Part shown: piece after piece, positions 17,856 through 21,057 of the stretch
Layout of the letters: each line of letters opens with the position of its first letter
Position numbering within the stretch: position 1 is the first letter of the stretch
Assembly (NCBI GenBank): GCA_902767225.1
Contig: CACXGN010000020.1
Location: forward strand, 62,001 to 126,000
Reading direction: 5' to 3'
Length of the DNA: 64,000 bases
Source: an uncultured Eubacteriales bacterium
GTDB taxonomy: Bacteria; Bacillota; Clostridia; Christensenellales; Borkfalkiaceae
Notes under the pieces: model-generated
What the model saw: only the letters and a program-made list of their open reading frames with translations
Database searches by the model: none
Told to the model about the DNA's origin: nothing
Program-made: the position numbers and the translations under genes

Positions 17856-18839
17856 ATGTATCAATCGAAACTTGGACTTTTAGACACAGAAATAGCAATA
17901 AAATACATAAAAGACAATTTTGAAAAAGAACTTGCCAAAAAACTTAAACTGACGAGAGTTTCTGCACCATTATTCGTTTTTCCCGAAACAGGACTTAACG
18001 ATAACTTAAACGGTGTAGAACGCGCCGTTAAGTTTGACGTTTTATCCTTAAAAAAGGAAGTGGAAATAGTTCAGTCGCTCGCAAAATGGAAGCGTATGGC
18101 GCTCGAAAAATACGGTTTTACCGTAGGCACGGGGCTATATACCGATATGAACGCAATAAGAAGAGACGAAGAATTAGATCCCGTTCACTCTTGCTACGTC
18201 GATCAATGGGACTGGGAAAAGATTATCGATCGAAAAGACCGTAAATTTTCATACCTAAAAAAGACGGTAAAGGCGATATATTCGGTAATAAAAAAGACCG
18301 CAAATCTTGTGAACGCAAAATATCCCGAACTTAAAAACGAACTTCCAAAAGATATAACCTTCGTTTCGACAAAAGACTTGGAGACTGAATATCCCACGCT
18401 TTCAAGAAAAGAAAGGGAAAACGCGATATGCAAAAAATACGGCGCGGTGTTCTTATATAAAATCGGTTGGGATTTAAAAGACGGCGCCCCGCACGACGGC
18501 AGAGCGGCGGATTACGACGACTGGAACTTAAACGGCGATATCCTTTTATGGAACGAAGTTTTAGGTTCGGCTTTTGAAATTTCTTCTATGGGAATAAGGG
18601 TAGACGAAAAGAGCCTTGTTAAACAGATAAAAAAGAGAAAAGAAGAATTCAAACTCGAAAACCCGTATTGCAGGGACGTTCTTTCTGGCAAACTTCCGCT
18701 GACTATCGGCGGCGGCATAGGTCAGTCAAGACTGTGCATGTATTTTTTAAAGAAGGCGCATATCGGCGAAGTTCAAGCCTCCGTTTGGTCGGAAGACGCG
18801 ATCCGCGAAAACGCCGCAAAGGGCATACACCTTTTATAA
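17856..18839 (+). CDS. asnA: Aspartate--ammonia ligase (AsnA)
   Basis: Class II synthetase-like enzyme making asparagine from aspartate, ATP and ammonia. Family motifs are LTRVSAPLFVFPETGLND, GLYTDMNAIRRDE, HSCYVDQWDWEK and the C-terminal GGGIGQSRLCMYFLKK. 327 aa, normal length. The ATG follows AAGGAG at the glyA end. It is the last gene of the long rightward run; its transcript meets the hairpins described from 18868 onward. Confidence 0.97.
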   Translation: MYQSKLGLLDTEIAIKYIKDNFEKELAKKLKLTRVSAPLFVFPETGLNDNLNGVERAVKFDVLSLKKEVEIVQSLAKWKRMALEKYGFTVGTGLYTDMNAIRRDEELDPVHSCYVDQWDWEKIIDRKDRKFSYLKKTVKAIYSVIKKTANLVNAKYPELKNELPKDITFVSTKDLETEYPTLSRKERENAICKKYGAVFLYKIGWDLKDGAPHDGRAADYDDWNLNGDILLWNEVLGSAFEISSMGIRVDEKSLVKQIKKRKEEFKLENPYCRDVLSGKLPLTIGGGIGQSRLCMYFLKKAHIGEVQASVWSEDAIRENAAKGIHLL

Positions 18840-18867
18840 TAGAATTTAATTATAATATAATTTAAGT

Positions 18868-18883
18868 CAATAAAAAAACGACC
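18868..18883. repeat. Left arm of a split terminator stem
   Basis: CAATAAAAAAACGACC is exactly complementary to 20202-20217 (16 of 16 bases). Joined, the two arms form an A-tract/stem/T-tract hairpin of the kind expected between the convergent asnA and rnf units. Confidence 0.7.
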
Positions 18884-18913
18884 TTATAGGCTATCAATTT
18901 TGAAACTTGCATA

Positions 18914-18950
18914 AAAATGACCTAGCTTCGTGCTAAGTCATTTTGTTTTT
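18914..18950. terminator. Bidirectional terminator for asnA and the lipoprotein gene
   Basis: Stem AAAATGAC-C-TAGC / GCTA-A-GTCATTTT (18914-18926 and 18932-18944, one C-A mismatch, loop TTCGT), followed by GTTTTT on the plus strand and by TTTTTAT on the minus strand. Confidence 0.75.
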
Positions 18951-19752
18951 AGTGCCAAGGGCTAAAATCTGGTTTGGTTCTTGCTGGAGAAAGGGTTTGG
19001 AGAAAATCGTCCATATTTTCGCCAACTGCGTAATATGTTGCTTCTGGCATGTTATAATTAGAGCCAGCAACATCAATGTCGGCATTGCGTTCTTGTGTCC
19101 ACAAGCCTTTAAGATAAATATGTGAGTATGCCGCAAACCAATATTTACATTTTTCATATGACCCGTCATATTCAAATACTGTTTGCCAAACTTCGCAGGC
19201 AACTTGTTGACCGCTTTCAAGAGTGATAGTTTCGTTTTCAAGCTTGGTTATTGTCATTGTGTCTAATTGAGAATTTACATCACTATAACCATGTAGCATA
19301 TAAGCACTTGAGTCTGGACCATAATTATATCCTCGGGAATCTTTAATCACTCCACCAATTACTGAATAGTTTTGGTCATTTGCAATCCAGCCATTGTCTT
19401 GATGGTAGGTATCGTCGTCTGCATTTTCCCAACAATTATTGTATTCATCCCATCTTGCAGAAATGAAGTGTTGGCCTTCACCTTGCCAGTAAAACACGCC
19501 ATCTGAAAGATTTTCTCTCACATAAACTTCATGTCGGCCTGACATTGAATATACTTCACTTTTAGCATAAATGTCATTGCCATCTTTTACATAAACTACA
19601 TTACCATATTCAACATGAACTTTGTCTGGCAAAGTTTGTCTGATATTTATTTGGTCATCGTAATTATTATTATTTCCACAAGCAGTTAAGCATAATCCAC
19701 ATGTAATTATGCAAACAAAAGCAAGCATAAAACTTAAAATTTTTCTTTTCAT
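18949..19752 (-). CDS. Predicted lipoprotein of unknown function
   Basis: A 267-aa protein I cannot assign. It has a signal peptide with lipobox LTAC (Cys25), so it is probably anchored to the outer face of the membrane. The rest is acidic, polar and rich in Tyr, Trp and Asn (for example YWQGEGQHFISARWDEYNN is cut here to its core GEGQHFISARWDEYNN). There are no membrane segments after the signal and no repeats. GGAGAT lies upstream of the ATG. Codon use is A+T-rich and unlike the neighbouring operons, which fits its place within the inserted block. Confidence 0.75.
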   Translation of the reverse strand: MKRKILSFMLAFVCIITCGLCLTACGNNNNYDDQINIRQTLPDKVHVEYGNVVYVKDGNDIYAKSEVYSMSGRHEVYVRENLSDGVFYWQGEGQHFISARWDEYNNCWENADDDTYHQDNGWIANDQNYSVIGGVIKDSRGYNYGPDSSAYMLHGYSDVNSQLDTMTITKLENETITLESGQQVACEVWQTVFEYDGSYEKCKYWFAAYSHIYLKGLWTQERNADIDVAGSNYNMPEATYYAVGENMDDFLQTLSPARTKPDFSPWH

Positions 19753-19868
19753 AGTCCATCTCCAAACTATTTATATTTTAATCATAGCATAAAACTTTTC
19801 ATTCTGTTTCGAAATTTGGGAAAATTTTTGAAATAAACTTAAACAAAATTTAATTATGGCATTTAAAC

Positions 19869-19924
19869 GTGTGCTTGTCTTGATACAAGTCGTTGTCGCT
19901 TCGCTCCAATGAAGACAAGCACAC
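19869..19924. repeat. Large stem-loop 1 upstream of the lipoprotein gene
   Basis: GTGTGCTTGTCTT (19869-19881) is perfectly complementary to 19912-19924, with a 30-nt loop. It lies in the 489-bp gene-free stretch 19753-20241. Apart from this hairpin, the next one and terminators, I see nothing in that stretch. Confidence 0.7.
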
Positions 19925-19944
19925 AATGAATAACCTTGGTTATA

Positions 19945-19988
19945 AGAAAGAGTGTGTGCTGGCAGAGCAAACGCACGACACTCTTTCT
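19945..19988. repeat. Large stem-loop 2 upstream of the lipoprotein gene
   Basis: AGAAAGAGTGTGTGC (19945-19959) pairs with GCAC-G-ACACTCTTTCT (19973-19988) over 15 bp with one bulged G and a 13-nt loop. It stands 20 bp after stem-loop 1 and has a different sequence. Confidence 0.7.
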
Positions 19989-20130
19989 CTTTTCTCTTTG
20001 GTTTTTAGTATAAACGAATATTCTTTGTTGTCAAGGTTAAAATGCATGTTTTGTAATTGTAAATATTAAAATAACAATGACAACCTATGACAACGGCATA
20101 ATATCCGTTTTGTTGGCTGATTAAGAGAGA

Positions 20131-20166
20131 ATAAAAAACACTCTAACTTTTTCAAGTTAAAGTGTT
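20131..20166 (-). terminator. Terminator downstream of the rnf operon
   Basis: On the minus strand, AACACTTTAACTT / AAGTTAGAGTGTT (20137-20149 with 20154-20166, one mismatch) is followed by six T. It lies inside the inserted block and would stop rnf transcripts. Confidence 0.75.
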
Positions 20167-20194
20167 AATTATTTGGCTAGTTTCAAAAGTCAGT

Positions 20195-20217
20195 GACCAT
20201 CGGTCGTTTTTTTATTG
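20195..20217 (+). terminator. Right arm of the split terminator; small self-contained hairpin
   Basis: GGTCGTTTTTTTATTG (20202-20217) is the exact complement of 18868-18883. By itself, GACC-ATC-GGTC (20195-20205) plus seven T can form a short rightward terminator. If the original locus had this form, the insertion duplicated GACC. Confidence 0.6.
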
Positions 20218-20241
20218 TTATATCTAATGTTATAAAACTTC

Positions 20242-21057
20242 TTAAAGTTCTTTAATGCACTTTCTCGGGCATTTGGTTACGCAGGTAAGGCAGCCCGTGC
20301 ATTTCGAATAATCGATAACGGGAAGATTATCTACCATCGTTATGGCGTTTTCGGGGCAGTTTTTAGCGCAAAGCCCGCAACCTATGCAGCCAAACGAGCA
20401 AGCATCCATAACGTCTTTTCCGCGGCATTTTGAAGAGCAAGCGATATAAACTTTCGAAGACTTCGGAATAAGTTCGATAATGTTTTTAGGGCAACCTTTA
20501 ACGCAAAGTCCGCACGCTTCGCAAAGTGCCTTATCTACTTTTGCCACGCCTTTTTCTATTAAAATAGCGTTATACGGGCATTGACTTTTACAAGTGCCTT
20601 CGCCAAGACACCCGAAAGAGCAAACTTTCTTTCCGCCCATAAACTTTGACTGGGCGACGCACCCTTCCGCACCGACGTAGCCGAACTTATCTTTTGCGTT
20701 TTCACCGCCGCCGCAATGGACTACTGCGAAAACATCTCCGCTATCGGAAAAAGGCACGCCTAAAATGTTAGCGATCTCCGCCTTATTTTCTTTTGAAGTC
20801 GGTCCGCAACCGGTTATATCAGCCTTGCCTTCGGATAGGGCTTTTGCAAAGTCCGCACAACCCGCGAACCCGCAACCGCCGCAGTTCGCACCCGCAAGTT
20901 TTTCGGATATTGCCTTTGCTTTTTCGTCTTCTTTAACGGCGCAAAGTTTTGATACGGTAACTATAAGCAGGGCAAAAACGATTGCAAGAACCGCTGTTAT
21001 TATAAGCACTATTCCGACCGTGCCCCAGTTTACGTTTTTAAGTAAATTATAAGTCAT
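20242..21057 (-). CDS. rnfB: Rnf complex subunit RnfB (iron-sulfur protein)
   Basis: Electron-entry subunit that takes electrons from reduced ferredoxin. One N-terminal membrane helix is followed by the Fe-S domain motif NCGGCGFAGCADFAKA, then C-terminal cysteine sets: CSFGCLGEGTCKSQCP, CEACGLCVKGCPKN, CSFGCIGCGLCAKNCP and CTGCLTCVTKCPRKC, enough for several [4Fe-4S] clusters. 271 aa. It is the last gene of the operon, 11 bp after rnfA. Confidence 0.97.
   Translation of the reverse strand: MTYNLLKNVNWGTVGIVLIITAVLAIVFALLIVTVSKLCAVKEDEKAKAISEKLAGANCGGCGFAGCADFAKALSEGKADITGCGPTSKENKAEIANILGVPFSDSGDVFAVVHCGGGENAKDKFGYVGAEGCVAQSKFMGGKKVCSFGCLGEGTCKSQCPYNAILIEKGVAKVDKALCEACGLCVKGCPKNIIELIPKSSKVYIACSSKCRGKDVMDACSFGCIGCGLCAKNCPENAITMVDNLPVIDYSKCTGCLTCVTKCPRKCIKEL

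Follow-up and report, generated by a model that had tools for sequence, protein, structure and literature searches.

Group IIC introns insert at intrinsic terminators. The element described here, a block of ~1.3 kb in the genome of an uncultured Eubacteriales bacterium, also lies in such a terminator, between asnA and rnfB, and its only substantial open reading frame (ORF) encodes a lipoprotein. It was found in a 64,000-nt stretch of contig CACXGN010000020.1 (positions 62,001 to 126,000), referred to below as the window. Unlike a group IIC intron, it has different ends and carries its gene between two apparent DNA attachment sites; a group II intron was considered and rejected, as no intron family matched in Rfam at E <= 1 within 18500-20600 of the window, and none reached gathering score in six related loci.

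Closer parallels are found among elements moved by large serine recombinases (LSRs), for which background is available (PMC3783163, PMC10083194). Multi-targeting LSRs (Durrant et al. 2022, PMC10083194) and elements of the Tn4451/Tn5397 type (TnpX, TndX) resemble the elements studied here in an LSR of Resolvase, Recombinase and zinc-ribbon domains, a 2-bp core and many targets. One published LSR case has a TT core and T/A-rich outer positions, and the main text of that paper does not contain the word "terminator" (PMC10083194). In contrast, the targets here are intrinsic terminators, and most copies have no recombinase and carry one to few genes.

Integrative mobilizable elements and relaxase-less mobilizable genomic islands (PMC5704250), among them MTnSag1 and tISCpe8, are likewise small, mobilised in trans by a helper and loaded with cargo of the restriction-modification (R-M) type. 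However, MTnSag1 and tISCpe8 have their own DDE transposase, whereas the cassettes here are without even a recombinase, and the same pair of ends and the same hairpin module are found with many different cargoes. An integrative mobilizable element is expected to have an oriT or Rep origin that a helper can use; judged by its position near Rep genes, the hairpin module may correspond to it. Integron cassettes, too, are single-gene units of varied cargo whose recombinase is encoded elsewhere, but no platform array exists here, the copies are scattered over terminators, and the crossover is of the 2-bp serine type. This crossover and the LSR argue against an integron cassette, although no dedicated search for attC or IntI was made.

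Taken together, the block is very probably a recombinase-less cassette, integrated site-specifically and belonging to an LSR-type family inserted in terminators. As far as our literature search went, this family of mobile cassettes has not been described before; the survey for terminator-targeting serine recombinases, limited to open-access papers, returned nothing pertinent and is weak evidence of novelty.

A lipoprotein cassette within a split terminator

A first-pass annotation of the window had proposed that two 16-nt segments bordering the block are halves of a single terminator, and this holds. The arm CAATAAAAAAACGACC (18868-18883) is the exact reverse complement of 20202-20217, and the flanks, once rejoined, form a hairpin of -19.7 kcal/mol, a value equalled in none of 200 shuffles. 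In the whole host genome (G000; labels G, L and C stand for genomes, loci and contigs, respectively), AAAAAAACGACC is present three times, in the two arms and in one intact bidirectional terminator on contig C5, AAAAAAACGACCGATTTTTTCGGTCGTTTTTT. The latter has the same stem, unsplit, and thus shows the appearance of an uninterrupted site. The short inverted repeat TTTTGAAACTWG, noticed in the same annotation near each end, has exactly two copies in the 1.24-Mb genome, one at each block end in inverted orientation, and the left-end (L-end) motif was likewise detected in G000 only at the L-end and the right end (R-end) of this block. Terminators belonging to the block itself are indeed placed inside both ends (Table 1).

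Base composition and codon usage set the block apart, the latter as the annotation had stated. The G+C content is 34% versus 41%, and the donor/host log-ratio per codon is +0.158 for the lipoprotein, compared to -0.27 +/- 0.08 for host ORFs, 0.5% of which score as high. By this measure, the codon usage of the lipoprotein is foreign.

The corrected limits of the element are 18886-20198, with AT as the duplicated core. GACC does stand at both junctions, as had been pointed out, but a role as duplicated target was rejected: its left copy lies within the terminator stem and its right copy within the conserved end sequence. The window target is CAATAAAAAAACGACCTT-AT-CGGTCGTTTTTTTATTG, so that the intact asnA-rnfB site would read CAATAAAAAAACGACCTTATCGGTCGTTTTTTTATTG, and the joined ends predicted for this element are AGTTTCAAAAGTCAGTGACC-AT-AGGCTATCAATTTTGAAACT.

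Table 1. Features of the cassette and its target in the window.
Feature	Position	Strand	Description
Left target half (attB)	18868..18887	+	A-tract and stem of the split terminator, with core AT (18886-18887): CAATAAAAAAACGACCTT-AT
L-end, putative attP half-site	18888..18910	+	AGGCTATCAA-TTTTGAAACTTGC; layout of 10 nt + TTTTGAAACTWGC common to 28 other elements
Bidirectional terminator inside L-end	18914..18944		Inverted repeat; kept downstream of the G240 lipoprotein homologue (L043)
Cargo lipoprotein, 267 aa	18949..19752	-	No known domain
Hairpin 2 of the shared two-hairpin module	19869..19924	-	Conserved in dozens of elements; covariation
Hairpin 1 of the two-hairpin module	19946..19987	-	Compensatory stem changes in alignment, GAGTGT/ACACTC versus GAGCGG/CCGCTC
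Sigma-70-like promoter, reading into the hairpins	20007..20034	-	TTGACA-N16-TATACT; conserved in 10/10 aligned cassettes
Terminator inside R-end	20134..20167		Read from sequence; 91-92% identical copy at the R-end in G240 C4
R-end, putative attP half-site	20176..20198	-	Inward GGTCACTGAC-TTTTGAAACTAGC; consensus AGTCACTNAC-TTTTGAAACTAGC
Right target half (attB)	20199..20217	+	Core AT (20199-20200) and CGGTCGTTTTTTTATTG

Shared ends and the crossover dinucleotide

The right end of the block recurs in G240, a Clostridia genome derived from reindeer, which is placed in another family and appears to belong to the same order as the host. In G240 C4 (47571-48520), the identity is 91-92% over 65 bp, the terminator is split again, and an unrelated gene is located between its halves. 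A search for further blocks with the same ends, recommended in the first-pass annotation, was unproductive in the host genome, where TTTTGAAACTWG is found nowhere else, and productive in related Clostridia. In relatives of G240, TTTTGAAACTDGC is strongly enriched over a reversed control, often as inverted pairs 1-7 kb apart. In total, 28 further end-pairs were collected from related Clostridia, making 29 sites with the window, and the sizes of the elements range from 0.9 to 9.1 kb. The window block has in common with cassettes of quite different cargo an end region of ~370 bp (the R-region), 87-90% identical. No result was obtained for the end pattern in IMG/VR, or for the R-region in phages or plasmids.

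Outer flanks of the elements are the arms of terminators. They vary between elements and yet match within each, which assigns them to the target and not to the element. Consequently, the outer 16-nt repeat and TTTTGAAACT were rejected as one 40-bp terminal inverted repeat, since its outer part differs from element to element and matches the other flank.

At 10 nt outside TTTTGAAACT, 24 of 27 pairs have the same dinucleotide at their two junctions, compared to no more than 5 of 27 at other offsets (4-23). Once two 1-nt shifts had been fixed and two pairs added, the rule was followed by 28/29 sites, with AT, AA or TT as the dinucleotide. Neighbouring positions do not match, and the overlap is therefore 2 bp. 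The crossover dinucleotide is located in the hairpin loop of an intrinsic terminator, and beyond it the junctions share nothing. At 27 of the 29 sites, the flanks form a hairpin with A- and T-tracts when joined again (p <= 0.05, 200 shuffles each). The proposal of the first-pass annotation, a non-autonomous element in a terminator stem-loop, is supported by these comparisons, with 28 other elements of the same ends located in other terminators. Genes that flank the elements are convergent at 13 and co-directional at 15 of 28 sites, and at none are they divergent.

The geometry deduced for attP, AGTTTCAAAA-N10-NN-N10-TTTTGAAACT, is roughly symmetric about the core, as is that of attB. Natural joined ends of this predicted geometry, agreeing at 20/20 fixed positions, were detected between tandem ends at L285:3809 and L123:1125. 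Among gaps of 10-39 nt, that of 22 nt is the commonest (18 cases, versus 14 for a gap of 23 and at most 8 elsewhere). A 2-bp overlap combined with symmetric half-sites is a signature of serine recombination, and the ends resemble attachment sites of a serine recombinase rather than transposon inverted repeats accompanied by a GACC duplication.

Segment L285:3700-4100 (G646 C4) is a tandem array of minimal elements of ~70-140 bp, comprised of scarcely more than both ends and the terminator. A joined-end site, AGTTTCAAAA-N10-AA-N10-TTTTGAAACT, is located between the minimal elements of this array.

Association with a large serine recombinase and proposed mechanism

Two complete elements with both ends, L127 (6.9 kb) and L286 (9.1 kb), follow one common gene order, and each carries cargo, hairpin, Rep (Pfam REP_ORF2-G2P) and an LSR with Resolvase, Recombinase and zinc-ribbon domains. 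The LSR gene is located inside the element, beside an end, in L127, L286, L208-L211, L267 and L268. The window copy contains both ends of the complete elements and neither Rep nor LSR, as is characteristic of a non-autonomous derivative.

An R-end past the stop codon was found for each of the seven LSRs that share at least 70% identity with the L127 protein, two of which are available only as C-terminal fragments. The distance is 70-140 bp in six loci (L208, L209, L210, L211, L267 and L268), while the R-end of the L127 LSR (the same gene as in L207) is on the same side ~660 bp away, beyond a gene for 177 aa. LSRs that are no more than 51% identical to the L127 protein had such an R-end nearby in 0/25 loci. 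By position, this clade of LSRs and no other sampled is tied to these ends, a conclusion left unchanged by the spacing in L127. In L208 (G660 C24:1-2846), the LSR of this clade lacks its first 66 residues and has other genes in front, apparently representing an element in the course of losing its recombinase.

This arrangement strongly suggests that the LSR would join attP, formed in the circular element, to attB in a terminator. Full-length elements would comprise cargo, hairpin module, Rep and LSR, while cassettes of the window type would be their internal deletion derivatives, which keep cargo, module and both ends and would be moved in trans. Terminators probably serve as attB because each bidirectional terminator has two T-tracts, inverted and 7-14 bp to either side of a free dinucleotide; the enzyme would recognise the paired T-tracts rather than the hairpin. 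Insertion should be of little cost to the host, since the terminators that the element has inside each end still provide termination for the flanking genes. Every bacterial genome contains terminators, and an insert that supplies its own can usually interrupt one safely; an enzyme recognising terminators would in this way have a general, non-damaging address.

The two-hairpin module

The ~370 bp shared by cassettes next to the R-end consist of a terminator, a conserved stretch, a promoter and two hairpins. Folded together, the hairpins reach z = -5.5. In the alignment of hairpin 2, 98.6% of cells are paired and 21 cells are changed on both sides, with a covariation score of 0.148, compared to 0.053 in shuffled and at most 0.043 in slid controls. 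The module is not found in Rfam. In 11 loci, hairpin 2 follows a Rep gene (REP_ORF2-G2P) at ~110-156 bp; among them is L292, an element that has a tyrosine integrase and belongs to the host family. Because it is kept in cis, ~110 bp from Rep even in the company of a tyrosine integrase, the module is probably a Rep-dependent origin of replication or transfer. Hairpin 2 was observed at this distance past Rep genes in both the host family and the G240 family (L292-L298, L304-L306, L204 and L205), and in this position it looks like a widespread, unnamed origin.

A possible but less convincing alternative, which leaves LSR-type insertion untouched, is that the module is a regulatory or counter-transcribed RNA and not an origin. 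A strong sigma-70-like promoter is placed directly upstream, and hairpin 1 is terminator-like, both of which would suit an RNA. However, the module is kept in most recombinase-less copies whatever the orientation of the cargo, and its distance of ~110 bp from Rep genes is nearly fixed; a cis-acting site fits these features better.

IS110 elements use a 2-bp core. They also use a structured bridge RNA (PMC11208160), and a module with a conserved promoter and covarying stems might be regarded as the RNA guide of an IS110-type recombinase. We consider this very unlikely, as the module is near-identical across cassettes with unrelated target stems, and a sequence that remains constant while its targets vary can hardly programme them. 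Furthermore, the module is present by Rep in the element with a tyrosine integrase, and no IS110 (DEDD) gene was detected in the sample of element proteins scanned.

Alternative explanations and contrary evidence

Insertion of a DDE-type transposon or a miniature inverted-repeat transposable element into the terminator, with either the outer 16 nt or TTTTGAAACT as its inverted repeats, would explain why the block is small, has inverted repeats at both ends and has no recombinase inside. The origin of the outer arms from the target makes this explanation highly improbable, as do a duplication of only 2 bp (AT, AA or TT), the absence of a DDE transposase from every element read, and the presence of the same ends next to an LSR. 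Horizontal transfer of the lipoprotein gene and its own terminators by homologous recombination, with the split terminator as a coincidence, agrees with the foreign codon usage and the homologue in another family, but is scarcely credible given that the ends recur in 28 other copies within other terminators, that the dinucleotide is conserved, and that an end region is shared with unrelated cargo.

Several observations speak against integration of an LSR-type cassette as proposed here. The dinucleotide rule is broken in L170, while L180 and L184 do not form hairpins when rejoined. Some pairs were picked partly by their matching arms, and the match of arms and the folding are thus not fully independent; the dinucleotide played no part in choosing pairs. 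Cores of the LSR copies found are AA/TT and their R-ends have AGTCNNNNNN; the window element differs in its core, AT, and in its R-end, GGTCACTGAC, and no LSR partner of AT-core ends was found among the copies collected. A scan covering 333 kb of the 1.24-Mb host genome detected no LSR.

An empty asnA-rnfB site in a close relative, which the first-pass annotation had named as proof of insertion, was also not found. In the nearest available genomes, those of the same genus with AsnA 72-81% identical, asnA precedes tcdA and/or yfcE; next, in contigs that extend far enough, comes convergent rnfB, with an ordinary, unsplit bidirectional terminator separating the last gene from rnfB. Neither tcdA nor yfcE is present at this place in the window genome (18840-20241).

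Cargo, hosts and mobility

Cargo of the elements includes lipoproteins, R-M systems, DUF262 proteins, ABC transporters and metabolic genes. As an illustration, L126 carries a cytosine methyltransferase and an ATPase, L180 a Dam-type methyltransferase and a DUF262-like protein, and L120 a DUF262 protein. HNH and zinc-finger proteins, IscS/IscU-like and SDR genes and peptide deformylase were found in others.

Near-identical elements are located at different loci in different species (L117/L118, L119/L183 and L124/L181). The terminator by yqeY is occupied by different cassettes in G646 and G713, and in G636 no cassette is present at that junction; in distant relatives the terminators of this locus are intact but the gene order varies, and as an empty-site comparison the locus was of partial use only. 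G171, a second species of the genus of the window, contains another cassette (L288), whose core is AA and whose arms match; its R-region is 87% identical. The window cassette is therefore part of a pool common to at least two families. Two independent cassettes, L121:2247-3272 and L126:6362-7285, are placed directly beyond genes for conjugative coupling proteins (TraG/VirD4 family). This proximity suggests a vehicle, and both cassettes may ride on conjugative elements.

We regard it as somewhat probable that the whole system is integron-like without a platform: cassettes of one to few genes, including anti-phage defence genes, would be moved in trans by the LSR, use terminators as a safe address and the Rep origin for copying or transfer, and cross between families. 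If true, this would account for the spread of single genes for defence or surface functions among uncultured gut Clostridia with no visible mobility genes, and a core-N10-TTTTGAAACTWGC pattern in a split terminator would be a sequence rule for finding such cargo. Isolated foreign genes between convergent genes may be explained in the same way, and the recombinase would be of possible use for integration at terminators.

The lipoprotein gave no significant match in Pfam, NCBIfam, PDB or PADLOC and no match in plasmids or IMG/VR, and it was not found in the other 200 genomes of the host family or in ~390 of the class, save for matches at the level of the signal peptide. Its sole homologue, 73-77% identical, is in G240, where the gene is split over two contig ends (L043/L045). 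This copy has degenerate ends and no hairpin module, resembling a stranded cassette. A homologue (29% identity) of a 210-aa protein encoded ahead of Rep in a complete element lies at the very start of a host contig (G000:C20:317-886), and the host may therefore carry a related element elsewhere.
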